Below are positions 23,215 to 41,140 of a stretch of 64,000 nt of DNA, in pieces. The position numbers were made by a program, and so were the translations under genes. Numbering within the stretch: the first letter of the stretch is position 1; every line of letters begins with the position of its first letter. This DNA comes from Halohasta litorea. Its GTDB lineage: Archaea; Halobacteriota; Halobacteria; Halobacteriales; Haloferacaceae. The stretch covers positions 310,001 through 374,000 of the forward strand of contig NZ_JANHDJ010000003.1 in assembly GCF_024494645.1 (NCBI RefSeq). The letters are read 5' to 3'. Below the pieces are notes generated by a model that worked only from the letters and a program-made list of their open reading frames with translations, had not been told where the DNA came from and made no database searches.

Positions 23215-25371
23215 TCAGTCGAGGACGGCGGTCTCTCCGAGCGCTGCCGCGCCAAGTTCGAACTGTCGTTCGGAGAGCCGCGTCGTACTGCCGAGGAAAC
23301 TGTCGACGCCGAGTCTGAACTCCGGCTCCAGTTCGACGAGCGAGCCGCGGACGTGGGCCGGGGTTTCGGCCTCGATAATCGTTTCGACCGCCTCCCGGTG
23401 GTCGGGATCGTCGAACGGCCCGGCGTAGACGGCCACCGACTGCTCGCCCGGAAGCGCCGTTTCGTAGGCCTCACTGACTGCCCTCGACTCGATCCCGTCG
23501 AGCGCCTGTGGTTCGAGAATACAGAGCCCGTGGTCGACACCTTTTAAATTATCAGATTCGCCCGGGACGAACCGGTCGCCCGGTGGCGTTTCGGGCGGCG
23601 AGATATGGCGGAGATAGAGTGCCAGTCGCTCCTGGAGTCCCTCCCTCGTTCCTCGCTTGCGATAGTGCTGTGGTGCCGAGGCCACCAGCTCACGGGTCGC
23701 CGCTGTCGGCCAGTCGACCGGCGCATCGGCACCGATCCAGGAGGCGAGCCACGGCAGCGTCTCGCTCGGCACAGCCGCGGGGTCGAAATACCGAGTCACC
23801 GTCTCGATCTCGCGTTCGACCCCAGTGAAGACGGTCCCGAACACCGACAAAAACTGTTCAAGGAAGGCCGCCGAGTCGGCATCGTCCTGATACAGTTCGG
23901 GCAGATACTGGAGATACGACTGGCGCGGCCAGAACGCACGCAAGGAACTGACGCGTGGCGTCTCGGTCGGACTCCCCACGAGTTCGAGCCGGACTGTGAG
24001 ATAGCGGCCAGTAGCCTCCGACAACAGCACGTCGGTCGACTGCGGCTCGACGGTCTGCCAGCGATCCGAGAGGGCGGTCTCGACGGCAGCCAGCGCGGCG
24101 TCGAGACAGCCACTCACCTCGTCGACAGTGAGTTCGTCGGCGAGGGCTGCCAGTTCGGCCGGGGGAGCAGAGAGCAGTTCCCAGACCGAATCGATCCCCG
24201 CCGAGGCCAACAGCGACTCGTCGAGACCAGTCACCGCCGAGAGGGGTTCGTCCAGCGGTGACCGGTCGTCGCTGGCGAGATACGACAGCCGGAGTTGACT
24301 GCTTGCAGTCGGCCGATCGCAGCCGACGGTCAGCCGGTGCCACTGGATCGATCCCCCGGCATCGAACTGCCGGTAGGCTCGCCCACGGTAGCGGCCATCA
24401 GAGTCCTGTGTGTGGGTGTCGGTCGAATCGAGCCGCAGACAGGAGCCGTCGCCAGTCACGGCATACGAAACGCCAGCAGGGCTCGCGGCCGGTGTTCTGA
24501 ACACGCGACAGCGACCGTCGAGCCGGTGTCGCTCCAGGACGCTCGACGTCCCGGGGTCGACAGCACCGACGAGAGTCTCGTCACCGGTCGACGTCGAGCC
24601 CATCACGAGCAGCGGCGACGATGTTCCCGTCGCGATCTGCGTCGGCATCACCGAGGTCTCGTCCCCATCGGTCGTTTCGAACGTCGACAGCGGGAACGGC
24701 CCGGGATCGATGTTTTCCTCGACGGTGCGTTTCCGAATCCGGTGGTTCCGACCGACCGGAATCCGGCCATCGAGGAGTTCGCCCGTGGACGCCTGTTTTT
24801 GAACCGGTCTGTGGTCGGCGTGGGCTTCGAGGACGTAGATATCGCCGGTCTCCTCGACGGCCATATCGAGCGGACGGGACAGCGAATCGAATACCGCCTC
24901 GACGCCCCCATCGTGCTGTACGGTGAACACAGCCTCGGCTGCGGCATCGAGGAGATACAGTCGGCCGTCGGCAGCGGTGATCGTCACCGGTTCGTCGAGG
25001 CCGGTTTCGATAGTACCGATCGACTGTCGAAGCCGCGTGGAGACGACCGCCAGCGTTCCCATCTCGTCGACGACGTAGAGACGCTCGCCGACCACACAGA
25101 GCGCCCGCGGCTCGGCGCCGCCATCGGCCCTCCAGAGGCGATCTTCGACCGATCGGCGCTTGTCGTGACGGGAGACGGTTCCTGATTCCTGGAGCGCATA
25201 CAGCGTCCCGTCGGCATCGACCGTGATATCACGGGCAGTGGGCGACAGCTGGTCGACGGTCAGCGAGGGCTCCGAAGCGAGTTCGATCCCGCCGTCGCGG
25301 ACGGCGATGTTCCGCCCGGCCCACTGCTGCCAGTCGGTGTCCGTGTGTTCGGTGACTGCTGAAAACTCCAT
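23215..25371 (-). CDS. CIS baseplate/tail protein I with beta-repeat N-terminal region
   Basis: 718 residues. The C-terminal third contains YLQYLPELYQDDADSAAFLE, RYFDPAAVPSETLPWLASW and QHYRKRGTREGLQERLALYL, the signature of the phage tail protein I family that links baseplate wedges to fibres. The N-terminal half (about 1-340) has repeated short blocks such as GRLYLLDAAAEAVFTV, GDIYVLEAHAD and GTLYALQESG, suggesting an NHL/PQQ-like beta-propeller, though this is inference from the repeat pattern. Its start shares a nucleotide with the stop of the preceding gene (TGATG). Confidence 0.85.
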   Translation of the reverse strand: MEFSAVTEHTDTDWQQWAGRNIAVRDGGIELASEPSLTVDQLSPTARDITVDADGTLYALQESGTVSRHDKRRSVEDRLWRADGGAEPRALCVVGERLYVVDEMGTLAVVSTRLRQSIGTIETGLDEPVTITAADGRLYLLDAAAEAVFTVQHDGGVEAVFDSLSRPLDMAVEETGDIYVLEAHADHRPVQKQASTGELLDGRIPVGRNHRIRKRTVEENIDPGPFPLSTFETTDGDETSVMPTQIATGTSSPLLVMGSTSTGDETLVGAVDPGTSSVLERHRLDGRCRVFRTPAASPAGVSYAVTGDGSCLRLDSTDTHTQDSDGRYRGRAYRQFDAGGSIQWHRLTVGCDRPTASSQLRLSYLASDDRSPLDEPLSAVTGLDESLLASAGIDSVWELLSAPPAELAALADELTVDEVSGCLDAALAAVETALSDRWQTVEPQSTDVLLSEATGRYLTVRLELVGSPTETPRVSSLRAFWPRQSYLQYLPELYQDDADSAAFLEQFLSVFGTVFTGVEREIETVTRYFDPAAVPSETLPWLASWIGADAPVDWPTAATRELVASAPQHYRKRGTREGLQERLALYLRHISPPETPPGDRFVPGESDNLKGVDHGLCILEPQALDGIESRAVSEAYETALPGEQSVAVYAGPFDDPDHREAVETIIEAETPAHVRGSLVELEPEFRLGVDSFLGSTTRLSERQFELGAAALGETAVLD

Positions 25372-27341
25372 CAGTTGCTTCCCCCGTCACGAACGGTCGA
25401 CTCGACAGCAATGTGCTCAATATAAAACAGCGAGCCGTCGTCGATCCGAACGGTCCCGTCAGGAGTGACCGAGGCGTCGCCCACCGTCCGAACCGAGAGC
25501 TCGTCGACGTGGTCGACTGCCGGAAGCTCCAGGAGCTCCTCGCGGAGCTCGGCGGTCGTCAGCGAGCGGCCGAACGGCCAGCCCTCTCCCTCGAAGCCAC
25601 GGATCGGGTCGAGATAGGCTTCGAGCCGGGTTTCGATCGCTGACCGGTCGCCGCCACCGGCGTATCGGTCGGTGACGGTCACCGAGACGGAGATATCCAG
25701 ACCGACGTAGGTCGGCGGGACGACGGCCACGCGATCGGTCAACAGGCGATGGCTGTCGAGCTGTTTCTCGACGGCTTCGCGGAACCCCTCGCTCGGCGTG
25801 GGGCGTGTCACATCGGGCGGCGCGTACGGAACGACGACGACCGAGACCGGCGAGGCCGCGTCGGCTGGCACGTCAACGGCGGTCCGAGCGATCCGCAGCC
25901 CGGGGGTTCGCTCGGCGAGCTCGGCGTACTCCGACTCGGTCACTGCGCGGTAGGTGGTGTCGAAATCACGCTTGCAGCGATCAATGGCCTCCTCGATCGA
26001 TTCGCCTCCTCGACCGCCGGTCGCAGCCCCCTTCGGAGAGACGTCGACCTGCTCCAAGAGCCCGTCGTCGAGCCGCTGGTCGCCATCGATGAACCACCAG
26101 CTGGCCGTCTCGGGGACGTTGCCATCGGCTCCGCCGCCCGCGATGTACGAGGCGGTCACCGTGGCGTCGACCGGCGGTCGCCGACCGGTTCGGTTATCTC
26201 CGAATTCGAGAATCCCTTGCTGGCGGTCAAGCACGTAGTGGCGGTCGGCAGGACCGGACGCATCGAAATCCGCGACTTCGGACCATGGCTCACCGTCGAC
26301 CGAGACAGTCGCCGACAACACGGGCGCGTGATCGAACTCATATGTTTCGGGAGCCGTACCGGCCACCCCCTCGTTGCAGGGCTCCAGTGTCGCCTCGTGG
26401 TGTCGGCGGTGGCTGGCTTCGACGACGTTCAACTCGACGGCATCGAGCTGTGGCGGGATCTCGTAGCCACCGGTCTCGACGCGACACCGGAGCCAGACCA
26501 GTCCCGGCTGGTGGCCGAACAGACCACACTCCTGGCTGCCCCACGCTGTCGGCTCCCACGTCGCTGGCCGTTCGAGAGTCACGAAACCGGTCTCGTAGAG
26601 GCTGTTTGTGGTATCGCGGCCGACTGCCAACGGCTCCCACTGGGCCTCACGGTCAGCAGGGCGGTAGCCCCGACAGTACTCCCAGACGAGCTCGACCGAT
26701 GGCTCGAAGGTCGCCGGATCGGACGTCGAGAAGGGCGGGCTCCCAGCCGACGGGTCGGGGAGATCATCGTCGTGGAAATCGACGAAAAGCGAGAGCTCCT
26801 CGGCCGATTCGAATGGGTCGCCCGCAAAGCCGAGGGCGAGCACCGATCCAGGAGCGGGATCGTCGCCAAACGCGCGGTAGTGGACGCCGTCGGTCTCGTT
26901 GGCATCCGTCTTCGGTTCGTGGCCCTGGTCGTGGTCGGCGACGACCGCAGCGAGGGAGCAGTCGGTCAGTGTCGTCCTGTGGGTCGTCTCGAACGTTTTG
27001 AGGGTCCCCGAGCCGTCGTCGACGCGGAGCGGGGTGTTCGCCGGGAGCCGACCGGCCCCTCCCTCGGCGGGCGAGAGATCGAGAACTACCGACGCTGGCT
27101 GGGGCGGGGTCGGCCGCACACCGAGTAGCTGGAGGTGTTTTTCCCGGTGGGCGTCGGTGATCTGATCCAACTCGTAGCTGTGGGTCTCGGTCAACCACGC
27201 CAGCAGTTCCAGGATCGTGATTCCTGGATCGTGAGGATTGAAATCGGTCCACGCCACGTCCGACGAGGAGATGAGCGTCTGGCCGCGATCGACCAGCTCC
27301 TCGTACTCCAGTTCGTCGAGCTGTGGCACGTCGATACTCAT
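25371..27341 (-). CDS. CIS baseplate wedge protein, baseplate J family (second copy)
   Basis: 656 residues. The start contains DFNPHDPGITILELLAWLTE and ITDAHREKHLQLLGVRPTP, and the middle VTASYIAGGGADGNVPET, ITESEY-like AVTESEYAELAERTPGLRIA, then a C-terminal ferredoxin-like part (FRREAVEKQLDSHR-like region and GFEGEGWPFGRSLTTAELRE). These are the marks of the putative baseplate assembly protein family related to T4 gp6 (Afp11/Afp12). It overlaps the first copy by 4 nt. Two such wedge proteins form the heterologous baseplate ring in Afp/PVC particles. Confidence 0.92.
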   Translation of the reverse strand: MSIDVPQLDELEYEELVDRGQTLISSSDVAWTDFNPHDPGITILELLAWLTETHSYELDQITDAHREKHLQLLGVRPTPPQPASVVLDLSPAEGGAGRLPANTPLRVDDGSGTLKTFETTHRTTLTDCSLAAVVADHDQGHEPKTDANETDGVHYRAFGDDPAPGSVLALGFAGDPFESAEELSLFVDFHDDDLPDPSAGSPPFSTSDPATFEPSVELVWEYCRGYRPADREAQWEPLAVGRDTTNSLYETGFVTLERPATWEPTAWGSQECGLFGHQPGLVWLRCRVETGGYEIPPQLDAVELNVVEASHRRHHEATLEPCNEGVAGTAPETYEFDHAPVLSATVSVDGEPWSEVADFDASGPADRHYVLDRQQGILEFGDNRTGRRPPVDATVTASYIAGGGADGNVPETASWWFIDGDQRLDDGLLEQVDVSPKGAATGGRGGESIEEAIDRCKRDFDTTYRAVTESEYAELAERTPGLRIARTAVDVPADAASPVSVVVVPYAPPDVTRPTPSEGFREAVEKQLDSHRLLTDRVAVVPPTYVGLDISVSVTVTDRYAGGGDRSAIETRLEAYLDPIRGFEGEGWPFGRSLTTAELREELLELPAVDHVDELSVRTVGDASVTPDGTVRIDDGSLFYIEHIAVESTVRDGGSN

Positions 27342-30300
27342 TGTCGGCCCCCCAGCTGGACGGAGATCGTGTGCTCGCCGCTACAGACCAGCCCATCGAG
27401 CGATAGCTCCGGTGTGGGTGAGCCCTCAGTCAGTCGGTGTCGATTGCCACTCTGCTGAACGGTCGCCGACAGCTCAGTCACAGCCTCGACGCCCGCGACA
27501 GAGGAGAGATGCGACTGGAGCGAGGCCGTCGTTGGGAGGTCGCCGAACGCCCAGCCGGTTCCGTCGTCGCCGTCGAGAGGGTGGAGATAGCAGTCCAGCG
27601 TCGATTCGAGCTCGGATTTCAGCACCGAGAGACTCGTGTCGCCGGTTGTCTGTACCGTCGCCTCGACCGAGACGGGGGCGTAGTTCGGCCCACGAACCGT
27701 GATGCCGGACCCCTCACCGGCGGTGATCCGCGCTGGGGCAGCCTCGCTGACTGCCCGCTCGACGCGCTGTTCGAGCGCCATCGAGGGCATGGGTCGGTCG
27801 TCGTTCGAGTCGGGGACAATCAGGAGAGTGATCCAGCCCGGCTGCCGGGTCCCGTCCGGGCCGAGATGCGGCTGGCACTCGACAGTCGCGAGTTTGCGGA
27901 CGGCCGTGGCTGCGATCTGCTCGAAATCCGACGCCGTAACCGCTCGCCCACGGGTTTTGAGTTCGCCCGCCGCGCGTGTGGCGACCTGTTCGGTCGGCTC
28001 GACACCGATCCCGCCGTCGGCTGGTGCAGGGTTGTCGACCGATTCGACCAGCGAGATCGGCGTTTTGAGATCCATGACTGCGCCCGATTCGACGTTTCCG
28101 GCCGGACCGCCGCCGGTAGTATATGTCGCCCGAACCGCGTTGCCGTGCGGCGGGATCGCCCCGGCATCGCCGTCGCCGAAGGAGATCCTGCCCGCCGAGC
28201 GATCAGGGCGATAGACACGACTGTCGCTACCAGCGCCGACGAAGTTGTCGACGGGCGTCCATCGAACCCAAAACGCCGTGAGTTCGCCCTGATCATCGGT
28301 GATTGCGGCAACGCGATCGGGCTGTGTCTCCTGGAGATCGGCCCGCTCGGCCGCCGACAGCGAGTCGGCCTCGTCGACCCAGACCTCGCAGTCGATGAGT
28401 GGGCCATAGGCGCAGTCGAACTGCTGGTCGGCCGAGCCGTCGCTCGTCCCGAGAGTCTCGTCTTCGATCGTCCGGGCGTTGTCAGCCCACTGCGTGTTCG
28501 GATGGAGTCCCCCAACGACGGGTGGCCGAGCGTCCGCTCGCGGCGACCGACTGCCAGCGGTCGGAGCCGATTGGTGGCTCTCGCCGCGCTCGGTCACAAG
28601 CCGATCTTCGGTTACGACAGCCCGAACCCAGTGACACCGTGTTCCGAATCGCTCGTGTTCGACGGTCGGCTCGGGGAACCGAAGCGAGACGATCCCGCTT
28701 TCGGTGAACCCACAGGTCCCGTCGTCCACGGGGAGCCGCGACCAGCTGTCGGTCTCGGGGTCCGTACAGTACTCCCACTGAACGCCGGGATCGAACCCTC
28801 GGGGATAGCCGGGGTCTGCCAGCGGGACGAAGACCGGAATCGGGCCATCCCGTAGCACGCCATCGAATCCCAGATAGATCGTCTGGCTCGCCTCGGAGAG
28901 GCGGTCGAACGGCTGAAACCGGTCTGCCGTCTCCGGCACCGACTCACGGACGCCGTTGTTCTCGGTGACCACGTGGGCAAACGAACTGTCGGTGTGTTCG
29001 TACCGAAGCGAGATACCGCCGTACTGTGGCGAGTCGGTGGGATCGAACCCACCGCTGTCGGGATCAGTCACGTCGACCGACGGCTGGCCGTAGCTCCCGC
29101 TGACGAGGCGGCCGCGAATCCAGCGTGCCTCGTGTCCCGAGACAGCCGTTGGCGCGATGTCGTCGGGAACGACGAACTGGAGAGTGCCAGCCGCACGGAG
29201 GCTGTCGGTGTCGTCCGACTGGACAGGCAACCCGGTCCAACTGGTTCCGTTCCAGTACTCCCAGGAGAGCTCCGGCGGCCCCCCGAGCACCCCGAAATCG
29301 ACGCCCGAGGAATCACCGTCGACAGAACCGTTTGGCTCGCTGGGAGCCGACGCCGAGTCCGTCGACGAATCGGCCACCGGTGACTCGAACGAGAGGGTAA
29401 CGAGGGCACCGGGTTTACTGAGCGGTTCACTTGCAGTGAGATAAAACGTCGAAGACGGCTGTGGGAGCCGCCCAAGGGGCCGAATATCGGAATCATCCCC
29501 GAAGGAGAGTGGCACGTCGTCGGTGAATCCAGCGTCGGGCGTGAGCCGGTCCCTCTCGGGCGACTGGCCGACCAGTACGCGAACTGACTCGATCTGTGTG
29601 GCAAACGGGGCCGATGAAGAGGTATCTACTCGACATCGAATCCACCGTGATTCGATCCCATCGATAGTCGTCGAGACGAACTCGTTCGGAAGCCGAAGGC
29701 AGACCGAATACCCCTCGTCGGTCGACTGTTGACGTGTCGAGAGCCGGTCAAGCCGGTGGCGCAGCGACTCCCCGGCGTCACCGTCGGCGATCGCCGATCT
29801 GTCGGCGGTCGCTGCGGTGTCGGTCGGGAGGCTGTGCCAGCCCTCTCCCCCGTCCTCGTCGACGCCATAATACTCCCAACAGAGACACGCTTCGAGCACC
29901 TGTGGGTCGACCGAACCGCGAAGCTCGATCTCGATGATCGAGCCGGGATCGAGTTCGAGAACCGAGCCGTCGCCGAAATACAGGGCGTGGTGCTGGTGGT
30001 TTGGGCCCGCAAACAGTCGCTGCGAGTCGCCGTCGATCGCTGCCTCGTGGCTGACGAGTCGGTCGGTTTCGGGGTCGACGGTATACCACGCCATCGGCGA
30101 GGCGGGTGTCGCCTCGAAGCTCCCTTCTTGTGGAATCTCGAATACCGCCGTCTCGTCGTCGGCCGTCGCCGCGACGGCCTGTGTCCCACTCGGAACCGAT
30201 ACGTTTCGGTCGAGATCGGCCGAGACGTCGACCGACAGCGGGAGTCGGGCGGCCTGCGGTGGACGGCGCTGAAAGCCGAGACTGTCGAGAAACGCCGCGC

Positions 30301-30490
30301 GATGTTTTTCGGGCAGTCGGTTGAGCTGTTGGATCGTCTCGCCGCCGAACTCCGCAGCGATCCGGAGCAACAGGGAGGCCACGTCGGTCGAACTCGACTC
30401 CCACCCGTCGACGTAGCTGTCGGCCAGCTCGGTGAGTTCGCCTACGAGCTCCTCCTGGCTCCGGTCGTCGAGCGTCGGCGGCTGGGTCAT
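27338..30490 (-). CDS. CIS baseplate wedge protein, baseplate J family (large copy)
   Basis: 1050 residues. N-terminal RIAAEFGGETIQQLNRLPEK and FLDSLGFQRRPPQAARLPLS open the family domain. Several inserted beta-rich modules with WEYYG, WEYWNGTSW and WEYCTDPETDSW repeats occupy the middle. The C-terminal core has FGDGDAGAIPPHGNAVRATY, GGPAGNVESGAVMDL, GRAVTASDFEQIA and GTGWAFGDLPTTASLQSHL. It is a gp6/Afp11-like wedge. The tryptophan-containing WEY-type modules, at least three, are probably domain duplications facing outward. It overlaps the gp25-like gene by 4 nt. Confidence 0.92.
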   Translation of the reverse strand: MTQPPTLDDRSQEELVGELTELADSYVDGWESSSTDVASLLLRIAAEFGGETIQQLNRLPEKHRAAFLDSLGFQRRPPQAARLPLSVDVSADLDRNVSVPSGTQAVAATADDETAVFEIPQEGSFEATPASPMAWYTVDPETDRLVSHEAAIDGDSQRLFAGPNHQHHALYFGDGSVLELDPGSIIEIELRGSVDPQVLEACLCWEYYGVDEDGGEGWHSLPTDTAATADRSAIADGDAGESLRHRLDRLSTRQQSTDEGYSVCLRLPNEFVSTTIDGIESRWIRCRVDTSSSAPFATQIESVRVLVGQSPERDRLTPDAGFTDDVPLSFGDDSDIRPLGRLPQPSSTFYLTASEPLSKPGALVTLSFESPVADSSTDSASAPSEPNGSVDGDSSGVDFGVLGGPPELSWEYWNGTSWTGLPVQSDDTDSLRAAGTLQFVVPDDIAPTAVSGHEARWIRGRLVSGSYGQPSVDVTDPDSGGFDPTDSPQYGGISLRYEHTDSSFAHVVTENNGVRESVPETADRFQPFDRLSEASQTIYLGFDGVLRDGPIPVFVPLADPGYPRGFDPGVQWEYCTDPETDSWSRLPVDDGTCGFTESGIVSLRFPEPTVEHERFGTRCHWVRAVVTEDRLVTERGESHQSAPTAGSRSPRADARPPVVGGLHPNTQWADNARTIEDETLGTSDGSADQQFDCAYGPLIDCEVWVDEADSLSAAERADLQETQPDRVAAITDDQGELTAFWVRWTPVDNFVGAGSDSRVYRPDRSAGRISFGDGDAGAIPPHGNAVRATYTTGGGPAGNVESGAVMDLKTPISLVESVDNPAPADGGIGVEPTEQVATRAAGELKTRGRAVTASDFEQIAATAVRKLATVECQPHLGPDGTRQPGWITLLIVPDSNDDRPMPSMALEQRVERAVSEAAPARITAGEGSGITVRGPNYAPVSVEATVQTTGDTSLSVLKSELESTLDCYLHPLDGDDGTGWAFGDLPTTASLQSHLSSVAGVEAVTELSATVQQSGNRHRLTEGSPTPELSLDGLVCSGEHTISVQLGGRQ

Positions 30491-30885
30491 CCGTCACCTT
30501 CCGTCAGATAGAAGGGATACACCATATTCGAGAGGCTGTTGGTGGTTCTGACGTGGTATGCGATCTCGATCAGTACCTTGTTCGGCTCCTCGTCGTCGGT
30601 GTGGGCGTCGACTGATTCGATATCGATCCGTGGCTCCCACCGGACCAGCGCCTCTCGGACGCTGCTTTCGATGAGGTTCAGCGTCGACGGCGTCGCGGCC
30701 GAAAACAGGTGTTTGTGGATGTCACAACCGAACTCGGGTCGCATGAGTCGCTCGCCCTTCGCGGTGCCCAGAATGATTCGGATCGACTCCTGGATGTCCT
30801 CGTCGGCCGACGAGACCGCGACATCGCCCCGACGGTCGGTGCCGACCGGGAAGCGCCAGCCGGTTCCTAAAAACTCCTCGGACAT
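30487..30885 (-). CDS. CIS baseplate protein, GPW/gp25 family
   Basis: 132 residues: FLGTGWRFPVGTDRRGDVAVSS in its N-terminal half, then ESIRIILGTAKGERLMRPEFG, the classic gp25 core containing the EPR-like loop region, and HVRTTNSLSNMVYPFYL at the end. gp25 joins the inner baseplate to the first sheath ring and starts sheath assembly. It follows the PAAR gene with 6 nt spacing. Confidence 0.95.
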   Translation of the reverse strand: MSEEFLGTGWRFPVGTDRRGDVAVSSADEDIQESIRIILGTAKGERLMRPEFGCDIHKHLFSAATPSTLNLIESSVREALVRWEPRIDIESVDAHTDDEEPNKVLIEIAYHVRTTNSLSNMVYPFYLTEGDG

Positions 30886-31180: not shown

Positions 31181-31927
31181 TTAGTTAAGGAATATCATCT
31201 TCCCTTTGATATTTAAAATCGCGCCCGCTTCGATCGCCATCGCCATCGTACTATTTATATCGAGTTTGCCCTTGCTCGTCAGGCTCGCCTTCGATTTGCT
31301 TGAGAGATCAAGCGACTGCTTCGCGCCGATGTCGACGGTCTTGTCGCCGCGGAGTTTGATCGTCTTGGCTCCCAATTCGAGTGTGTCGGCGGCCTCGATC
31401 GAGACCGTATCGGACGACGAATCGAGCCGAATCCGATTCTTGCCGGATTTATCGGCGATTTCGACCTTTTCTTTCCCATCCGCATCGTTGAGTGTGATCG
31501 TGTGGCCAGCCTTGGTTTCGATCGTGAGCTGGCCGCCATCGTCACCGTCATCGAACTGGACCCGATGACCCTGCCGGGAGACGATCTCGCGGATGTCGTT
31601 GTTCCCGTCGCTGTTCTTCTGTGGGGGTTTTCGGTTGCCGTTCCACAGCGAGCCGATGACGAACGGCTGGTGGACGTCGCCGCCCGCAAAGGCCACGAGG
31701 ACCTCATCGTTGATCTCCGGCAGGAAGTACGAGCCGTACTGTTTGCCGCTCATTTCCGTCGCGATCCGGGCCCAGTAGCTCTCGTCGTCGGCCTCCCGCC
31801 ACGGGAACCGGAGCTTTACCCGGCCGAGGTCCTTCGGGTCCTCGTTGTCGGTGACGATCCCGATCCGGACGCCGCTGATCCCGTCGCGGTTCTTGGTCGA
31901 CCGGTCGAAGATGTCGGCGTGGTCCAT
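31181..31927 (-). CDS. CIS spike protein, phage baseplate assembly protein V/gp5 family
   Basis: 248 residues. The OB-fold part includes VRIGIVTDNEDPKDLGRVKLRFPW, SYWARIATEMSG, YFLPEINDEVLVAFAGGDVHQPFVIGSLW, all typical of gpV/VgrG spike domains. From about residue 125 the chain is made of short repeats (GHTITLNDADGKEKVEIAD, DTVSIEAADTLELGAKTIKL), consistent with a triple-stranded beta-helix needle. No lysozyme domain is present. It shares one nucleotide with the hub gene's stop codon. Confidence 0.95.
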   Translation of the reverse strand: MDHADIFDRSTKNRDGISGVRIGIVTDNEDPKDLGRVKLRFPWREADDESYWARIATEMSGKQYGSYFLPEINDEVLVAFAGGDVHQPFVIGSLWNGNRKPPQKNSDGNNDIREIVSRQGHRVQFDDGDDGGQLTIETKAGHTITLNDADGKEKVEIADKSGKNRIRLDSSSDTVSIEAADTLELGAKTIKLRGDKTVDIGAKQSLDLSSKSKASLTSKGKLDINSTMAMAIEAGAILNIKGKMIFLN

Positions 31928-32946
31928 CAGGCCACCTCCGTCGCCTCGAAGCTCGTCCGATACCCCGAGCCCCCCATGCGGTGGGTGGCGTTGGTGACGT
32001 AGTAGTCGCCGGAGAACCGGCCGCCCAACTCTTCGAGTGTGACAACCTCACCGGCTCGAATCGCGGGGTTGCCATCGGTCTCGCCGTGGCCCTCGATGCG
32101 GCCGTCGGCGTGTCGGCTGTGCTTCTTTTCTGCGATCCGTTTGGCTTCGTTTCGTGACATAACTGGTACTCTGAACACTTCGGTGTAGTCGGCGGCGCTA
32201 CTGCCTGCGGTGGCGACGATCTCCTCTGCGGCTTCGGCATCCCACGACCGAACCTCGACGCGGTGGTCGGACTTGGTGTCGGTGATCTCGGCGTAGAAGT
32301 CGTGGAGCGCCTCGCCGTACCAGAGTTCGGCCACCGGTTTGCTGTCGCTCCCGCGGCCGGTCTGTGGCCGAAACCGAACCGTGTCGCGCTCGGCAAAGAA
32401 CGCGAAGCCGTAGTGGTCGGCCAGCGCCTCCAGAAATCGGTAGTCGCTCTGGTTGTCCTGGATCAGCTTCACGCGCTTGATATCAGCGTCCTGGACGTCG
32501 ACCGTGCCGAAGGGGTATGACGAGAGGACGTCCTTGACGGCATCACCGACAGTCACATCCTTCCACGACCGGGAGTTCGTCCCGTTCATCAACTGCTTGA
32601 GGAGACCGTAGCCGCTGATCGTGACGATCGGCCCCTTGTCGACGGTGAACTCCGAATGGATCGACCGGATCGAGCCGGTCAGAAGCGACGTCAGCGTCCC
32701 ATCGCCGCCGTACCCCATGGCGATCTCGATGTCGGTGCCGATCTCGAAGGTCGTCCAGTCGAGCCCGCTGAACTCGCCCAACTCCTCGTCGAAGGGGTAG
32801 TTCAGCGTAAACGAAAACCGGTCGGCCCCCGACAGCGTGGTCTCGACGACGAGATCGGCGATCCGGCCGCCGGGCTCCTGGAACGTCGTCGACCCCACAT
32901 CGACCGTAAACCGCGGCGAGTAACGGGGTTGAAGATTGGCACACAT
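31927..32946 (-). CDS. CIS central hub protein, phage late control D/gp27 family
   Basis: 339 residues. YSPRFTVDVGSTTFQEPGGRI, DWTTFEIGTDIEIAMGYGG, LLTGSIRSIHSEFTVDKGP and ISGYGLLKQLMNG belong to the gpD/gp27 fold, and later YRFLEALADHYGFAFFAERD and RAGEVVTLEELGGRFSGDYYV fit the C-terminal hub part. With the separate spike gene it corresponds to a split Pvc8/VgrG. It forms the adaptor between tube and spike. The gap to the LysM protein gene is 2 nt. Confidence 0.93.
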   Translation of the reverse strand: MCANLQPRYSPRFTVDVGSTTFQEPGGRIADLVVETTLSGADRFSFTLNYPFDEELGEFSGLDWTTFEIGTDIEIAMGYGGDGTLTSLLTGSIRSIHSEFTVDKGPIVTISGYGLLKQLMNGTNSRSWKDVTVGDAVKDVLSSYPFGTVDVQDADIKRVKLIQDNQSDYRFLEALADHYGFAFFAERDTVRFRPQTGRGSDSKPVAELWYGEALHDFYAEITDTKSDHRVEVRSWDAEAAEEIVATAGSSAADYTEVFRVPVMSRNEAKRIAEKKHSRHADGRIEGHGETDGNPAIRAGEVVTLEELGGRFSGDYYVTNATHRMGGSGYRTSFEATEVA

Positions 32947-32948
32947 GA

Positions 32949-33626
32949 TTACAGTGGGGGTAGTTCCAGCGTCTCACCGGCACTGATCTGCCGGGGGTTT
33001 TTGATATCGTTCTGTTCAGCAATCGTCCGCCAGTGGCTCGAATCGCCGTACTCCTCGGCGGCGATCAGCCAGAGCGTGTCGCCTTCGGCGACCGTCCACC
33101 GCTTGGTTTTATCAGTCGACTCCGGCGAAACCTCGGATTTGTGGTAGTCCGCAGTTTTGTACTCCGTAAACTGGAGTTGGACACGCGCGCGGATCGGCAC
33201 GCCGCTCGGCAAGAACTTGGTGAACCGCTTTTCGGCGTGTTCGACCAGGGCCGTAAAATCGATCCCGTCGCCCCAGACGAAGCGACAGACCGGCGGGGCG
33301 TGGAGTTCGCCGTCGACCGCCAGCAGCGTGTCGATCATGTCGGTGTACTGCTTGCGGACATCGACGGCCTTCTGGTTGGGATCGGAGCCGTCGAGTTTGT
33401 CGGTCGTATCGAAGAACAGTTCCATCGACAGCGTCTCGGCGTTGCCGTCGACGAACTGCATGATCGACGCCCCCGATCCCGTCGCCTTCAGATCGCCGTA
33501 GTTGACGCTCTTGCCGACGGTGTACTCGGTGGGGTTGAACTTACAGTCGATGCTGTCGCCCTCGTGTTTGCCGTTGAGGACGAGGATCTGTGCCGTTTCG
33601 AGTTTGCCGCTGTGTGTGCCTGCCAT
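32949..33626 (-). CDS. CIS baseplate protein with LysM domain (Pvc7/Afp7-like, gp53 role)
   Basis: 225 residues. The N-terminal part with DCKFNPTEYTVGKSVNYGDL and ETLSMELFFDTTDKLDG is the tube-initiator-like domain of the Afp7 family, followed by ILPSGVPIRARVQLQFTEY-like sequence (KFLPSGVPIRARVQLQF). The C-terminal 50 residues are a LysM motif: VAEGDTLWLIAAEEYGDSSH and ISAGETLELPPL. In related particles this protein clamps the hub into the baseplate. It starts immediately after the stop of the 1515-residue gene. Confidence 0.93.
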   Translation of the reverse strand: MAGTHSGKLETAQILVLNGKHEGDSIDCKFNPTEYTVGKSVNYGDLKATGSGASIMQFVDGNAETLSMELFFDTTDKLDGSDPNQKAVDVRKQYTDMIDTLLAVDGELHAPPVCRFVWGDGIDFTALVEHAEKRFTKFLPSGVPIRARVQLQFTEYKTADYHKSEVSPESTDKTKRWTVAEGDTLWLIAAEEYGDSSHWRTIAEQNDIKNPRQISAGETLELPPL

Positions 33627-36600
33627 TTAGAATCCCGTCCGTTCGCGTTCGATCCGCAGTTTCCGTTCGAGTCGCCGGTAGAGCGTCTCGACGACGCGGT
33701 CGACATCGGCGTCGTACGCCAACGACGCCCCGCTGATCGAGTCGCCCAACCCATCGTGTGACCGCCGATCGGGATCTCGTCGAGCGGCAGCCGATCGGAC
33801 CGATTCCTGGTCGGTTGGTGGGGTGGGCTGCCGGTCGGGCCGCTCGACCGGTTCGAAGGGGTCCGACCGGCTCGTCGTCCGATCGTGGCGATCCGACCGG
33901 GGTTGTGGCGTCTCCTGACTGCCTGCACGGCCATCAGTCGCCGTCGACTGCCCCCGCCGGTGGCGGTGGTCAGCGGTGCCACGACTCCCGGCTGCGTCGT
34001 GATCCGATTCGGACCCTCGCTGGCTCAGTGGCTTTTTAAATGTCAGCTGCGGTCGGCTGTTTTCTCTGCTGGAGCCGTCCGTTGCTGCCCGTCTCCGGCC
34101 GGTATTCTGGCTCTGCGATTCGGTCGACGAACCCGCCCCGATAGCCTGCGTCAGCGACGAGGATCGAGCCGACCGTGGCCGCCGACCAGCGACGCGACTG
34201 CTCTCCTGGATTGCAGCATCGGGATTCCGACCGCTATCGCTCGATGCGGTGTTCATCGGACGAGCAGCTGGCACCGACAGCACGGACGCGTCAGGGCCCG
34301 TGTCACCCGGTTCGCGGTCGACCAGCGTGGGGGTCGAACCGATAGAGGTGCGCGACAAGCCGTCCGGATCGAGTCGGGACCGAACGGTGGTGTGCGGAGC
34401 CGTTCCTGGATAGCTGTCGTCACGGGGAGTCACAGTCCGCAAGACGCCGGTCGCCGATCGAGTCCGCCGTGAACGGTTCGTACCCGGCGAGGAACGATCG
34501 GAAGCGATGGCCGTCGACTGTTTAAAAGGCCGATTGAGTACCGAGCGCTTATCCTCCACAACGCCCGTGTCGCTCCGAAGCTGTTCGGAATGCTGTGGGA
34601 CGGACGCTAAACTCGACGACGGATCGGAGTGTTGACCGCCGGGCGAGTGGTTCCGATGGTGTCGGTGAGACGACGGACCGAGCCCCTCAGTGTGCCACAA
34701 CCCACCGGCAGATCGTCGCGGTCGGAATCCAGCCGACTCCGAGGGACGAGGGGTTGGTTCGGACTCGCCGCCCACGGCGGTCGACTGTCGTAATCGGTGG
34801 ATCGGTCGATCGATCGGCTGCGAAAGCCACGACAGAGTGGCGGGTGGCGAATCGGGAGCAACCGAACGGCCAGCCACGTCCTGTCGCGTCGGCAGTCGAG
34901 ACTGGTCGACGTCGGTCTCGGCGGTCCGTGTAGATTGGCGGACAACGGCCAACGCAGGTGGAGTGATGTCCGAGACATCCGAACTGCTCGCGGGAGGGGC
35001 GATACCGGTCGTCTGCGGGGTCGTGACGGTTGGTTCGGTGTCGGTACGGAGGGGCCGTCGAGCGAGCGACGACAGTAACTGATGGCGGTCGGCACTCTGG
35101 CTCGGCTCCAGGACCGACTGCTGTCGAGGGGCAACCGGTCGGCTGGCAGTTGGATCACTGTCACGGGCTGTCGGTCCCGTGTCGTTGGTAGCGGTCAGGG
35201 GATGGCGAGAGACGACCGCCGACTGCCGGAGCGAATGCCTCGGTGATCTCGGCGACGCAGAACCGGCCACAGACTCCTCCGTCTCGGTCGGTGGCGCTGG
35301 TGCTGCCGAATCGGCGTGCCCAAGCGGAGCGAGACGGCCAGCAACTCTCGGGGACGGAACCGCACGGGAAGCCGCAACGGGACGAGACCGAGCCGTCGTC
35401 ACAGCAGTTGTCTCTGGCGTGGCAGTCAGACCGGTTTGTGAGCCAGTCGGGAGCCGACTTTCAGCGATCCGATCCACCGACGCAGAGAGTCCCGACCGGG
35501 ACCGAACTGTCGGCGAGTCCTGATCCGACGGTGAGGGATTCGGTCGTGTGGCGCGACAGGAGAGAGTCGGCCGACGGCTGGCTGTCGAAACCCCATCGGA
35601 GAGCGTGGGAGCGAGTGTTGTCGGTGAGCCACCGGTGAGCTCCGGGTTGTGAGTGGGCCACGACCGGTCACTGCCACCAGCTGGCGGCTGTACAGCAGTC
35701 AGCGTCGGCTGGGAACGGGAGTCAGGGTGTTGTCGAGGTGGCTTTGTAAATCGGAGGGAGCTGGCTGTCACCGGCCATCGAGAGATGTGCACGGAGTCGA
35801 CGCCCCGGGAGTCAGCCGATGGATCGCTTGCCGCGAGCGGAGCAAGCGAGATGTGGGACGCTCGGTGTGGTTGAGGGGTAGGTTCGATGCGGGGCCGCAT
35901 CGGTTCTGGCTGTCGCTGGAGGGTAGCCACCGCTGAGTAAGAGTCGGTGGGGGTCCACGAGCGAGCCGACGGCTGCAGTCGGCGTGGCTGCCGGGACTGC
36001 TGTGAGGGGAGCGACGACGAGTCGTGTGGATGATCAATCCGACTGATAGCGACAGAACTAGCGGGGCCACGATCCTGCCTCTGTGATCGGTGGATCTGAG
36101 ACAAACGATCCGAAACCGGACGAGACCGAGCGGCTGCGTCGGTAGCTGTGGAGGCTCCAGGAGCATCGGCCGTGAGCGCGGTTTGCAGTGCCAACACTGT
36201 CCCCCGAGTGTGTTTTCGGGACGGGCGCCGCTGGCTGTCCGTCGAACGACCGGCGGCAGCCGGTTGCTCCGGCCGTGATGGAACTGTGTTCGCGGGGCGG
36301 CGGCGACCGTGAGAATCTACCGTCGTGAGGGTAGCCTGCTTGTGAGCCGACGGTACCGCTGTGTCGGCGGGCGCAAACACCCGGTCAGTGTGGAATCGTC
36401 GACCGCTAGACGGATCGCCCCGACCTCTGGGACCCACACTGCTCGCCACAGAAACAACGGGGGCGAGCACACGCGTGGGGACGACAGGAGAGGGTAAGCG
36501 GTGCCGACCAGCTGGCTGGTGCCAAGGGCGATTGTCCTCACGAGAAGGAGAGAGTAGTTCCCCCGCCTCTGTGGCTGGTCGGCGGTCGATGCTTGCTGTC

Positions 36601-38174
36601 GATCGGGTCAGAGTGTGATCGACCGAACCAGTGTCGATGACAAAATCGACGCCACTCACCGTGAGTAGGCCGAACGTATTCGTCGAAAACCGACCGGCGG
36701 TTCGCACCGTGAAAGGATCACGTGTAGTCGAAGACTGGCCGATCGGTCTTGTGGAAAGATCGGACATCCGCGGCTGTGTGGTGGACGCTACAATCGGTCT
36801 CTGTGTGAGATTGGGGTCTCCACGAGGTGGGCCGAAATCCGAGCGTGCGGCGTCGGCAGTGATCGGTGGGGATCGGGCCGAGCCGACTGCAGAGTGGATT
36901 GGGCGGGACGAATCCGATGCCCGCCGAGGCTGCGGTGTTTGTGCTTGGGGAGATTGTTCGGGTGTGGGGAACCATCTCCTGGTTGTCAGCAACCCCGAAG
37001 CACGGGATGATACCGAGGTGGTGCCACCAACTCGAAGCGGTGGCTCACTGTCGGCAGTGGCTGCTCTGCTGCGTGCTGCTGGCTGTGTCGTCGGCGCCGA
37101 CCGTGTCGCGCTGTTCGGCGAGGAGCGGGCCGCTGGTTGCGACTGCGTCGAGTGTTGGTCAGCAGCCGCCGGCCATCCTGTCGCGGCTCTAACGGAGACA
37201 GCTGACTGGGTGGTGTGTAACTGGACAGTATCGACGGAAGGCTGTCCGTGATCGACCGCGGCCGCGGCGTGGCGCAGGGACTGCTCAGACTCAGACCGAT
37301 CATGAAACCCGTGCGTACGCGATTCGAATATATCGGTGTCGACAAAGCCGTCAGCCGTGATGACCGAGCCGGATAACCCACCCAAATGGGAAGGCCTGTC
37401 TTGCTCAACGGATCGATAGCGGAGGTCACGCCGCGGTCGGTGGGGACGACTCGCTGGTTGCGAACCCACCCACCCTGCAGTCCCAGAGTCCGCGGTGTGA
37501 GTGTCGGGGGCTGGCTGAGCCGAGTCAGTGAGCGACACCGATGGCTGCGGGTGAGTCCTAACAGACAGCCGATGTGCGGTCGACTGTCCAGGAGCGGTTC
37601 GTCTCGGTCGGTGAGGAACGGGTGGCCATGTTGGCCGATCCTGGACGGATAGTCGAACGGTCGGCGAGGCGTCTGTCGACCGGTTTGCCAGCGGTGGTGA
37701 TTGGTGTTTCTGGCCGGTTTGATGGGGGAAATCCATCGTCGAGGAGCTGCGGGGAGACAACCGATGGAGTGTTGGGATCGTAGTGTCGGCGACACGTGGC
37801 GGACGGTCGTGGTCGGCCGCAACAGTGGATCGATCCTGGAGTGCTGACGACACGTCCGGAGAACCATCCGATGGGCTGTCAAACGGTGTCTCGGTCGGGG
37901 CGTCGGCATGTGGATGACGAAACGTGAGCGTCACCGGACTGCTGTGGCGCGCGAGGCCGAACCCGAGCAGGCCAGTGAACGATCCGCGATCAGTAGGTAG
38001 TCCAGCAGTCACACGGCTTTCGGCGCTCAACACCGTGTCGAACGATGTCGAGACAGTGTCGATACCGCCGGTTCGGCGACCGGCGGCAGTCTCGTGAGAG
38101 GGGTCGGTGACACGGATCGACTGCAGCCGTCTGTCGAGCGGTGAGTCCGCACCCGATCGATGACTGCCGGTCAC
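33627..38174 (-). CDS. Giant basic, disordered CIS protein; tape-measure candidate
   Basis: 1515 residues from a GTG start. Nearly the whole chain is Ser/Thr/Arg/Pro/Gln/Asp-rich and low in hydrophobics, so it is probably disordered; it has no catalytic motif and no membrane segment. It is arginine-rich in an otherwise acidic proteome. Only short hydrophobic patches stand out, for example FGLLTVSGVDFVIDTGS (about 506-522) and FTGLLGFGLARHSSPV near residue 67. The last 25 residues switch to an ordered amphipathic helix, DVDRVVETLYRRLERKLRIE. It abuts the LysM baseplate gene and follows the tail-terminator gene, the neighbourhood where Afp14-type length-determining proteins occur. A ruler or scaffold role is inference. 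No homologue is known to me. Confidence 0.8.
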   Translation of the reverse strand: MTGSHRSGADSPLDRRLQSIRVTDPSHETAAGRRTGGIDTVSTSFDTVLSAESRVTAGLPTDRGSFTGLLGFGLARHSSPVTLTFRHPHADAPTETPFDSPSDGSPDVSSALQDRSTVAADHDRPPRVADTTIPTLHRLSPRSSSTMDFPHQTGQKHQSPPLANRSTDASPTVRLSVQDRPTWPPVPHRPRRTAPGQSTAHRLSVRTHPQPSVSLTDSAQPAPDTHTADSGTAGWVGSQPASRPHRPRRDLRYRSVEQDRPSHLGGLSGSVITADGFVDTDIFESRTHGFHDRSESEQSLRHAAAAVDHGQPSVDTVQLHTTQSAVSVRAATGWPAAADQHSTQSQPAARSSPNSATRSAPTTQPAARSRAATADSEPPLRVGGTTSVSSRASGLLTTRRWFPTPEQSPQAQTPQPRRASDSSRPIHSAVGSARSPPITADAARSDFGPPRGDPNLTQRPIVASTTQPRMSDLSTRPIGQSSTTRDPFTVRTAGRFSTNTFGLLTVSGVDFVIDTGSVDHTLTRSTASIDRRPATEAGELLSPSREDNRPWHQPAGRHRLPSPVVPTRVLAPVVSVASSVGPRGRGDPSSGRRFHTDRVFAPADTAVPSAHKQATLTTVDSHGRRRPANTVPSRPEQPAAAGRSTDSQRRPSRKHTRGTVLALQTALTADAPGASTATDAAARSRPVSDRLSQIHRSQRQDRGPASSVAISRIDHPHDSSSLPSQQSRQPRRLQPSARSWTPTDSYSAVATLQRQPEPMRPRIEPTPQPHRASHISLAPLAASDPSADSRGVDSVHISRWPVTASSLRFTKPPRQHPDSRSQPTLTAVQPPAGGSDRSWPTHNPELTGGSPTTLAPTLSDGVSTASRRPTLSCRATRPNPSPSDQDSPTVRSRSGLSASVDRIAESRLPTGSQTGLTATPETTAVTTARSRPVAASRAVPSPRVAGRLAPLGHADSAAPAPPTETEESVAGSASPRSPRHSLRQSAVVSRHPLTATNDTGPTARDSDPTASRPVAPRQQSVLEPSQSADRHQLLSSLARRPLRTDTEPTVTTPQTTGIAPPASSSDVSDITPPALAVVRQSTRTAETDVDQSRLPTRQDVAGRSVAPDSPPATLSWLSQPIDRPIHRLRQSTAVGGESEPTPRPSESAGFRPRRSAGGLWHTEGLGPSSHRHHRNHSPGGQHSDPSSSLASVPQHSEQLRSDTGVVEDKRSVLNRPFKQSTAIASDRSSPGTNRSRRTRSATGVLRTVTPRDDSYPGTAPHTTVRSRLDPDGLSRTSIGSTPTLVDREPGDTGPDASVLSVPAARPMNTASSDSGRNPDAAIQESSRVAGRRPRSARSSSLTQAIGAGSSTESQSQNTGRRRAATDGSSRENSRPQLTFKKPLSQRGSESDHDAAGSRGTADHRHRRGQSTATDGRAGSQETPQPRSDRHDRTTSRSDPFEPVERPDRQPTPPTDQESVRSAAARRDPDRRSHDGLGDSISGASLAYDADVDRVVETLYRRLERKLRIERERTGF

Positions 38175-38349: not shown

Positions 38350-38961
38350 TTAGCTATCGGTCGTGCGGTCGACCGTCGTCTCACGATCGGTGACCGGAAC
38401 GACCTCTTCACGCTGCCGTGAGTCGATCAACACTGGCCCGACGTGGTAGACGGCCGACGGTTGGAAGGCGGCCTCGGGAACCGTCGACCAGAGCCCCGAG
38501 AGCTCGTCGATCGAGGCGTTCACCAGCGAAATCTGCAGTTCGAGCTCCGGATCCAGCGAGCCAGCGAGCTGATCGCCGGTCAAAACGGCGTTGTCGTGGA
38601 ACGTCTGCATCGCCAACCCCAGTATCCGTTGTTGTTCGACTGTTGCCGCAGCCCCGTCATCGGTGCTACCCGGATAGGCGGTCACGAGATAGTAGAGATC
38701 CAACGCGAGCGGCGGCTCTTGGGAGACGGTTGGGTCTCCAGTATGGCGAGCCGCCTCGGTGTTTTTCATTGCGGCGTTCTCCTCGACCCGATACAATGAC
38801 AGCGACAGCCGGGTCTCGGAGTCCGTACTCACTTCATCGGGGGCAACCAGCGAAACCGCCTTGCCGTCCATCGAAAATACGTCGTCGCGGGCGGCAAACC
38901 GATCCCGAAGCAACCCACGCAGCGTCTCGCTCACATCCGCTATTGCGGTGTACGAAGCCAT
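38350..38961 (-). CDS. CIS tail terminator protein, DUF4255/Pvc16-like
   Basis: 203 residues. ETLRGLLRDRFAARDDVFSM, RLSLSLYRVEENAAMKNTEA, PLALDLYYLVTAYPG and AEQQRILGLAMQTFHDNAVL-like blocks match the DUF4255 family, named after Pvc16/Afp16, which caps the sheath-tube end distal to the baseplate. It is the first gene of the CIS series. The sequence after residue 185 (DSRQREEVVPVTDRETTVDR) is a charged tail. Confidence 0.92.
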   Translation of the reverse strand: MASYTAIADVSETLRGLLRDRFAARDDVFSMDGKAVSLVAPDEVSTDSETRLSLSLYRVEENAAMKNTEAARHTGDPTVSQEPPLALDLYYLVTAYPGSTDDGAAATVEQQRILGLAMQTFHDNAVLTGDQLAGSLDPELELQISLVNASIDELSGLWSTVPEAAFQPSAVYHVGPVLIDSRQREEVVPVTDRETTVDRTTDS

Positions 38962-39100: not shown

Positions 39101-40222
39101 ATGCTCCTCGCGCGTCTCAAAAAGAGCGGACGAAAATACGCTGCAAAGTATCTCCGGCTGACGCTCCTGTCGCTGGTTGTCGCCGCCGTTGTGACAGCCG
39201 TTATCAGTGCAGTCGGGAATCCACGCCAGATTTCAGTGCTTCCCGAACGCCTCGGCCCGCCGCTCGTGGGAGTCTTCATACAGGTACTCGTCGTATGTTT
39301 CGTGGGTGGGTTGATTATCCGTCTGGTCAGCGCCCACAGTGCTGATCTTAAGCAGGCCTGGAACGAGCGGATCGGTGGTCCACTCGTCGACCGGTGGACC
39401 GGACTGGCACGACGAACCAGGGCCATCATCACGGGGGTGGCGACAGCAGTCGTCGCCGGGACCGCTGCCGCAGTCGCAGGGGTCGTCTACCCGGTCCCGC
39501 TGTCGCTGATCGGGGCCGTCGCGCTGTTCGCATGGCCAGTGGGAACCTACTGGTCGCTTCGACGGCAGTCGACCGCCGAGTCCGCAAACATCGGCAAGTC
39601 GGTCGTCGTCCGAAGTCGGTATGCCGACCTTCGACAGCAGGAAACGCGGACGGTTGCCCTGTTGGGTGGCTTCCTGATCGCGGCAGCCACCGGTACCGGA
39701 CTGTGGCTGTTAGGTGTCGACACCGCAGCGACAGCCGGGATCGCCGGACTCGTCTGGCTGGTGGCCACAGTGATCGTCTACAACCGATACGAGACGATAC
39801 TCACCGAACGAACAGCGCTCGCTATCGTTGCCACAACGACCACGACCGAAAGCGACGGGCTCGAACTCATGATCAAAAACCGGGGCGAAGAGACGGTCGA
39901 CCTCACGAACCCGACACTCGAAGACACGACGCACGAACGCTACCGGATCGAACGACAGTTCACGCTCCAACCAGGAGGGTGTGCCACGATTCAACTCCCG
40001 GCGTCGTTCACGTGGTCGACGACGACTGCGGAACGAACGCTCCCACTGGGCTACACGCTCGACCGGAGTCAAGCGGTCCCGATCGTCTACACCCAACAAG
40101 GGACAGCCTTCGAACTCCAACACGACGGCCAAACCGAGGAGAACACAGCATGGGCCGGGAGCGACGAGACGTACACACCGGAGCCGACGACCGTCTCGAA
40201 CGGAGCCCACAGCCAGGATTAG
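39101..40222 (+). CDS. Polytopic membrane protein of unknown function
   Basis: 373 residues from the ATG at 39101. Membrane segments are visible near LTLLSLVVAAVVTAVISAV, LVGVFIQVLVVCFVGGLII, AIITGVATAVVAGTAAAVAG, LSLIGAVALFAWPVG, and a pair at ALLGGFLIAAATGTGLWLLG and AGIAGLVWLVATVIVY. A C-terminal soluble domain of about 120 residues with beta-like sequence follows (GLELMIKNRGEETVDLTNPTL), recalling a small Ig-like fold. It diverges from the CIS tail-terminator gene and precedes another membrane-protein gene. No family is recognised. Confidence 0.75.
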   Translation: MLLARLKKSGRKYAAKYLRLTLLSLVVAAVVTAVISAVGNPRQISVLPERLGPPLVGVFIQVLVVCFVGGLIIRLVSAHSADLKQAWNERIGGPLVDRWTGLARRTRAIITGVATAVVAGTAAAVAGVVYPVPLSLIGAVALFAWPVGTYWSLRRQSTAESANIGKSVVVRSRYADLRQQETRTVALLGGFLIAAATGTGLWLLGVDTAATAGIAGLVWLVATVIVYNRYETILTERTALAIVATTTTTESDGLELMIKNRGEETVDLTNPTLEDTTHERYRIERQFTLQPGGCATIQLPASFTWSTTTAERTLPLGYTLDRSQAVPIVYTQQGTAFELQHDGQTEENTAWAGSDETYTPEPTTVSNGAHSQD

Positions 40223-40303
40223 GAACCGGATCGGGGGCGAATCGAGGCCGTTTCGGAGCAGAGCTTAGTAATCGTTATACGGCGGCTGTCCATTGGCTGA
40301 ATT

Positions 40304-41140
40304 ATGCAACGACGCGCTGTGGCAGTGTATGTCGCGTTCTTCGTGCTCATCGCGGCAGCGTCATACACGCTTCTCGCGACGGCCGAAGAGCCGACAATCA
40401 CGCTCGAAAATGCCGAGTACGAGCTCTCACAGAACGATACGTTCAGTGTGGGTGGCCAACAGTACACTGTAACCAGTATCGAGGAGGGTGAGGACGGCAG
40501 TGGATCGGGAACCCTCGAATGGACTGAAACTGACGTCGAGATGACCGAGACGTGGGCCAACGAGTCGACGGTCGAAATCGGTGGCACCGAGTGGACGGTG
40601 CTGATCGAGGGCGACGCGGCGAACGCCACCTCGTTCACCTTCGAGGAGGTCGTCGATCGACAGGCGATCCTCGAAGACGATCCGGACGTGCTCAATGAAA
40701 CCCAAGAGGTCGACGGCGAGGAGTACGTTGTCGACCAGTCGAGTGGGGAAAACGACCTCATCCCGGCCGAGGAGTACTTCGGTGCACCGGCCACACAGAC
40801 CGCCAGCGTTGGCGATAGCTTCACCTACAACGATCAGACGGTGACCGTCGACGAGATTGGAGCTAATGGCGTCACTGTGGCGTGGACCCAAGATCAGACG
40901 AACACGATCGACCTCGCCCACGAGGGGACGAGTGAACTCGCCGACGACAACGAGTATCTGGTCTTCTTCCCCGGTGACGGGACCGTAATGTTGACACAGG
41001 ACACCTCAAGCTACGATGCACAGGTCGAAGCCCAACAGGAGTTCTCCGAGCGACAAACCGGATTCCGGTGGACGACGTTCACCTCGCTGCTGTTCGCACT
41101 GTCGCTGATCGCGTTCGCCTTCCTGCCATCGCGGTACTAA
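40304..41140 (+). CDS. Membrane protein with large extracytoplasmic domain
   Basis: 278 residues. One membrane segment at the N-terminus (VAVYVAFFVLIAAASYTLLA) and one at the C-terminus (FTSLLFALSLIAFAFL) enclose about 225 acidic residues rich in Thr, Glu and Val with NxT/S sites, presumably outside the cell. Repeated beta-strand-like stretches (SVGGQQYTVTSIEEGEDG, FTYNDQTVTVDEIGANGVTV) suggest two copies of a small beta domain. It follows the previous membrane-protein gene with an 81-bp gap in the same direction. Function unknown. Confidence 0.75.
   Translation: MQRRAVAVYVAFFVLIAAASYTLLATAEEPTITLENAEYELSQNDTFSVGGQQYTVTSIEEGEDGSGSGTLEWTETDVEMTETWANESTVEIGGTEWTVLIEGDAANATSFTFEEVVDRQAILEDDPDVLNETQEVDGEEYVVDQSSGENDLIPAEEYFGAPATQTASVGDSFTYNDQTVTVDEIGANGVTVAWTQDQTNTIDLAHEGTSELADDNEYLVFFPGDGTVMLTQDTSSYDAQVEAQQEFSERQTGFRWTTFTSLLFALSLIAFAFLPSRY

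Follow-up and report, generated by a model that had tools for sequence, protein, structure and literature searches.

Gene content of the locus

The window, meaning the whole 64,000-nucleotide stretch of Halohasta litorea DNA that was analysed, carries the gene cluster of a contractile injection system (CIS), encoded entirely on the minus strand. Its genes run cis16, giant, cis7, cis8a, spike, gp25, two J genes, cis12, CIS13, sheath, tube, chaperone, DUF6760, cis5. The giant, a protein of 1515 aa, is the subject of this analysis. The genes were assigned as follows, with the chaperone and DUF6760 parts listed further below.

39394..40491, plus strand: protein with six TM segments and a soluble domain at the C-terminus, putative CIS membrane anchor (resembles Hbor_38620 by description)
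38350..38961, minus strand: cis16, Pvc16_N terminator/cap protein (Pfam, 9.2e-44)
33627..38174, minus strand: the giant, 1515 aa, disordered, CIS tape-measure candidate
32949..33626, minus strand: cis7, tube initiator with LysM (CIS_tube 3.3e-34, LysM 4.3e-6)
31927..32946, minus strand: cis8a hub, Phage_GPD / VgrG-like (family match)
31181..31927, minus strand: cis8b spike, Phage_base_V (family match)
30487..30885, minus strand: cis9, gp25-like (family match)
27338..30490, minus strand: cis11-type baseplate J protein (family match)
25371..27341, minus strand: second cis11-type baseplate J protein (TIGR02243)
23215..25371, minus strand: cis12-type wedge protein, Tail_P2_I (family match)
21899..23149, minus strand: CIS13 family protein (NCBIfam, 7.4e-154)
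20101..21804, minus strand: cis2 sheath (family match)
19615..20067, minus strand: cis1 inner tube (family match)
18382..18822, minus strand: cis5 tube adaptor (NCBIfam CIS5_fam, 2.2e-82)

Natrinema follows the bacterial order (chaperone, DUF6760, cis5, anchor, giant, cis7), and the window cluster is a permutation of it in which about 14 kb separate the giant from the chaperone genes further downstream. The CIS_TMP HMM (PF19268) gave no match in this genome. A 53-aa ORF lies between the tube and chaperone genes (19457-19618, minus strand), and Haloferax larsenii has a counterpart of 50 aa (L092, 28842-28994). Beside the CIS, the minus-strand segment 41162-44008 contains ORFs that by eye resemble a DNA methyltransferase (41162-42244) and an integrase/recombinase (42959-44008).

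Composition and predicted disorder of the giant

The giant ORF starts with GTG at 38174, and its TAA stop abuts the cis7 ATG at 33626 with no gap. About 35 stops would be expected in this frame from base composition, with a probability of about 5e-16 of its being open, and the five other frames over the ORF hold 20-38 stops each. The product is rich in S (14.6%), R (12.2%), P (10.9%), T (10.4%) and A (10.1%), with 0.6% K and nearly no Y, W or C; its net charge is +46, and the other structural proteins of the cluster are acidic. In a charge-hydropathy plot the giant falls on the disordered side of the line. Its GC3 is 0.63, compared with 0.73-0.84 in the neighbouring genes, and its codon bias is weak.

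Searches of Pfam, NCBIfam and PHROG returned no family match for the giant, tape-measure families included, and no coiled coil was found. Neither a significant repeat nor any periodicity was detected, and autocorrelation and Fourier analysis of eight residue classes revealed none matching the tube rings. The motif P.[LIV].[VLIFYT]R is enriched (30 occurrences, 7.4 expected); as the excess comes mostly from one conserved site near the C-terminus and several orthologues lack the motif, it was rejected as a recurring element.

The preliminary description had reported a 4.5-kb, Arg/Ser/Thr/Pro-rich frame between a terminator gene and a LysM gene, and these points hold: the ORF is real, is now placed on the minus strand, and has the Pvc16_N gene upstream and the LysM-bearing CIS_tube gene (cis7) downstream. 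The disorder suggested there agrees with the charge-hydropathy position. Its portrayal as basic holds for this protein but is not a conserved trait: the net charge of orthologues spans -58 to +87, and many of them are close to neutral or negative.

Conserved termini, selection and length variation

With cis7 as the query, 46 CIS genomes were recovered from 391 Halobacteria genomes. An equivalent of the giant lies directly upstream of cis7 in all 46, and in each of them this ORF ends in the same helix, with N-terminal motifs common to most; in one (L078) the ORF reaches the end of the retrieved stretch. The conserved segments map to the window as follows.

33636..33719, minus strand: C-terminal amphipathic helix, residues 1486-1513, proposed hub-binding anchor (AlphaFold2, conservation)
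37905..38174, minus strand: conserved N-terminal segments, residues about 1-90, with the patterns '.R.I.V' and 'L.P.RL.G...RI....L'

AlphaFold2, run with 45 orthologues, predicts a single confident helix at residues 1486-1513 (pLDDT about 94), the rest of the last 150 residues being disordered, and no confident fold in the first 130 residues. Helicity in the modelled terminal segments is therefore confined to this helix, which departs from the helical or coiled-coil build usual, if perhaps not required, in tape measures. The helix includes ETLYRRLERKLRIE, the segment in which a single amphipathic C-terminal helix had previously been proposed, and the model bears that proposal out. Its conservation extends beyond haloarchaea to Rhizobium, Nostoc and Paenibacillus.

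Between close orthologues, dN/dS is 0-0.3 (about 0.05) for the last 40 residues, 0.1-0.55 for the first 100 and 0.55-0.96 (about 0.7) for the middle, and nearly all indels are multiples of 3. Because of this dN/dS pattern and the in-frame indels, the giant is taken to be translated, with its ends under selection; the middle is held mainly to composition. The 46 orthologues and the in-frame indels also exclude a wrong-frame artefact. Low GC3 and weak codon bias would suit a wrong-frame or decaying ORF without a product, a reading whose probability is nevertheless close to nil: 1515 codons are open against the chance value of about 5e-16, the ORF is intact in 46/46 genomes, its indels keep the frame and its C-terminal dN/dS is about 0.05, so that the comparative sequence data already refute it.

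Orthologue lengths range from 381 to 2365 aa and fall into two groups, one of 381-625 aa and the other of 1096-2365 aa. In a cis7 tree, all forms of at least 1096 aa belong to one clade (support 100/98), with the short haloarchaeal and bacterial forms outside it. A putative membrane anchor of the archaeal T6SS has been described (Hbor_38620; PMC11566945), and the anchor gene was detected at 28 loci of the long clade, including the window and a Haloferax larsenii plasmid, and at 0 of 12 in the short clade. Zachs et al. distinguished two clades, 29 members with the anchor and 12 without, and the long and short giant clades agree with these when matched by description, not accession.

Between sister Natrinema genomes the giants, 1852 and 2154 aa long, show a gap of about 300 aa; those of Haloferax have about 2300 aa. 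The net length change is consistent with a random walk of indels; hence no tight length constraint is seen, and the idea that length is kept by compensating indels was rejected. Recent tandem duplications are present inside some giants (TTARIPRS...SRAT in L011, TTRRDGSTWGSDTMQESE in L014), representing a likely route to length change.

Chaperone pair and predicted ribosomal frameshift

Three features at the far end of the cluster define a tail assembly chaperone and its predicted frameshift product.

19062..19460, minus strand: gpG-like tail assembly chaperone (phrog_508, 1e-8)
19074..19080, minus strand: G_GGA_AAC -1 ribosomal frameshift site, in phase, at the 3' end of the chaperone gene
18829..19080, minus strand: T part (DUF6760) after the -1 shift (PF20546, 4.8e-28)

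The chaperone gene lies downstream of the tube gene, and the -1 frame at the slip site enters DUF6760, giving a predicted GT-like fusion of 127 + 83 residues. An in-phase G_GGA_AAN is present in 13 of the 15 haloarchaeal chaperone genes tested, compared with an expectation of 0.75 (mean of 2000 synonymous redraws, maximum 5). By gene arrangement and predicted shift, the chaperone and DUF6760 correspond to the lambda G/GT pair, and HCTV-1, a haloarchaeal virus, also has G_GGA_AAC as its g-t shift site (PMC5009743). Atkins et al. describe the tape measure as the binding partner of gpG/gpGT and the tube subunit as that of the T part (PMC5009743). No paper on DUF6760 was found in the open-access library searched, and a G/GT frameshift in an archaeal chromosomal CIS would give this domain a role.

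The chaperone gene occurs in 46/46 CIS genomes versus 4/345 other Halobacteria. Two genomes, G310 and G387, combine a strong chaperone match with the absence of a cis7 match and are possibly proviruses, cases of missed genes or incomplete assemblies. Among bacterial loci, a disordered ORF of at least 255 aa lies in or next to the slot before cis7 in 12/12 with chaperone and DUF6760, whereas the slot ORF is at most 71 aa in 6/6 without them; several Streptomyces relatives are included, making the independent cases fewer than 18, and Deinococcus, with its split cluster, was left out. Bacterial chaperone genes (L093, L094, L097, L102, L103, L105, L111-L114) carry a conserved G run before the stop, mostly CTGGGGGAA, which is perhaps another frameshift signal.

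Bacterial relatives

An HMM of the haloarchaeal C-terminus was run on 3535 ORFs from 16 bacterial CIS loci. The top three matches, in Rhizobium (335 aa, 1.3e-8), Nostoc (524 aa, 1.7e-5) and Paenibacillus (532 aa, 3e-4), are ORFs just upstream of cis7 and always involve the extreme C-terminus. In Streptomyces, the interval from DUF6760 to the tube adaptor holds large ORFs rich in Pro, Ala and Arg (908, 1020 and 1381 aa); their C-terminal pattern resembles that of the haloarchaeal giants, and none was significant with this HMM (E 8.3 for the 1381-aa ORF). Among viral sequences in IMG/VR, no relative of cis7 was confirmed.

A candidate tape-measure protein and its alternatives

Published work reports that haloarchaeal clusters (PMC11566945) and those of Streptomyces lack a tape measure. 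The giant provides a named, testable candidate for clusters thought to have none: we infer that it is probably the tape-measure protein of the haloarchaeal T6SS-like CIS. It is best read as a candidate of a new, disordered kind, an extended chain rather than a coiled coil, outside the CIS_TMP family. The strongest evidence for such a ruler is the predicted lambda G/GT-type chaperone pair in the same cluster, given its phrog_508 match, the slip site in 13/15 genes and its presence in 46/46 genomes. As in phage tape-measure proteins with lambda-type G/GT, the giant ORF is large, with conserved ends and a middle of variable length (381-2365 aa overall); its conserved C-terminus is encoded beside the hub and baseplate genes, and in Natrinema and bacteria its gene follows just after the tube and G/GT genes. 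It would likewise be a putative chaperone client. Unlike phage tape measures, the giant is predicted to be disordered and R/S/T/P-rich, not a helical coiled coil, and has no sequence match to them. With Afp14 / CIS_TMP it shares a proposed role in CIS length control, but neither sequence nor gene position. The preliminary description had suggested a ruler in an Afp14-type position; the G/GT pair, conserved ends, variable middle, hub-gene adjacency and C-terminal helix favour the ruler, while the positional argument was imprecise, since characterised CISs encode the spike plug Afp6/Cis6, not Afp14, in the slot directly before the LysM gene.

In the proposed mechanism, the C-terminal helix, probably in trimeric form, would dock in the hub (Cis7/Cis8), within the cavity that faces the tube and that seats the small Cis6 plugs in other CISs. 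Copies of the gpG-like chaperone, together with a few GT fusions produced by the -1 shift at G_GGA_AAC, would coat the chain and recruit tube subunits. Cis1 rings and then the sheath would polymerise along the giant to its end, where Cis16 would cap the structure, leaving the giant in the tube lumen and allowing its chain length to set the tube length.

The main rival to the ruler, in itself unlikely, is an enlarged Cis6-type plug whose helix would form a trimer within the spike cavity and nucleate the baseplate, the disordered part being a luminal tail or filler that measures nothing. The gene for a 50-52 aa spike plug, cis6, immediately precedes cis7 in Anabaena and Algoriphagus (PMC8894136, PMC8894135), and the giant occupies this slot (asl3322 directly precedes all3321/cis7) and, like Cis6/Afp6/Alg6 (DUF5908), ends in a helix. 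The C-terminal helix of Alg6 forms a trimer in the spike cavity on the side of the tube, and assembly depends on it (PMC8894135), slots lacking a giant hold proteins of 59-71 aa, one of them a DUF5908 protein, and the middle of the giant evolves under little constraint, all of which a plug with a long tail would accommodate. The Cis6 plugs 7b5h_AL and 7aef_t, retrieved from the PDB with a DUF5908-like probe that had no other use, consist of an N-terminal strand and a C-terminal helix. Against this reading, the giant spans 381-2365 aa compared with 50-60 aa for Cis6/Afp6/Alg6, a PDB search with its C-terminal profile gave no relevant match, and neither HMM nor profile comparison matched it to DUF5908 (PF19265); homology of the helix to Cis6 was accordingly rejected as not detectable. 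A plug also leaves unexplained why the G/GT chaperones accompany the giant and not small Cis6, the DUF5908-type loci examined having none, and why no orthologue has lost its disordered residues, which number in the hundreds to thousands.

That the giant is a cargo or an effector carried inside the tube, as with Tme and Sle1 of Streptomyces CISs, is improbable. These proteins are likewise large and CIS-encoded, and partly disordered or tape-measure-like; Tme is very large, about 70% disordered and encoded just upstream of baseplate genes (PMC11126660), and D. grandis carries a fusion of tube, disordered, DUF4157 and helix parts. Unlike Tme, which has DUF4157, and Sle1, which has a DUF4157 partner, both with toxic C-terminal domains, the giant shows no enzymatic or other family match. 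Family searches detected no Tme-type N-terminal DUF4157, and its last 150 residues contain no enzymatic domain, the conserved part being a 28-residue helix where a toxin would be expected. Every CIS genome has one such gene and only one, whereas cargo varies between strains, and the published T6SS-dependent secretome of H. borinquense lists DUF4157 proteins and not the giant. More remote still is a cationic filler that binds nucleic acid or the acidic lumen of the tube. The net charge of +46 in this orthologue and the negatively charged lumen of AlgoCIS and tCIS would speak for it; orthologue charges from -58 to +87, many near zero or negative, run counter to it. The cargo-scaffold and nucleic-acid-binding roles floated in the preliminary description consequently find no support, the giant having no DUF4157 or effector domain and its positive charge not being conserved.

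Extending the tape-measure reading beyond haloarchaea gives a tentative picture, somewhat short of probable, of a wide CIS class (archaea, Actinobacteria, cyanobacteria, Bacillota, Proteobacteria) in which length would be set by a disordered, fast-evolving chain, loaded by a frameshifted G/GT pair and ending in one helix that doubles as the spike plug. A single lengthening event would then have accompanied the haloarchaeal shift to long, membrane-anchored T6SS-like machines.

Chain length and particle length

If the giant is a ruler, length control is possible without a helical scaffold, and particle length could become readable from sequence, with giants of 381-625 aa specifying short and those of 1340-2365 aa long particles. 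The published contracted sheath of H. borinquense, 220 nm long with a rise of 17.09 A, corresponds to about 129 layers, and at a ring spacing of ~3.9-4.1 nm, the AlgoCIS value being assumed, to an extended tube of ~500 nm. Long-clade giants of 1340-2365 aa reach ~500 nm only when largely extended, at ~0.2-0.4 nm per residue, and would not span it as an alpha-helix at 0.15 nm per residue. This match of scale is a consistency check, with the sheath taken from H. borinquense and the giant lengths from other strains. The giant is not named in published mass spectrometry of H. borinquense, which covers contracted sheaths or secretomes only; the orthologue in the window would yield 87 tryptic peptides of suitable size.

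CISSc particles of S. coelicolor are uniform in length, with 61 sheath and 60 identical tube layers and no known TMP (PMC12237407); on this scale, the Streptomyces slot ORFs with the similar C-terminus measure 908-1381 aa. Particles of D. aquatilis measure 365 nm (PMC12998442); Deinococcus was set aside as a length comparison, its cluster being split and the D. grandis giant fused to a tube domain and DUF4157. This fusion, encoded on D. grandis pDEGR-1 (L108, 11502-15281), comprises 1259 aa and joins a tube domain to a disordered region, a HEVTH region resembling DUF4157 and a helix at the C-terminus.
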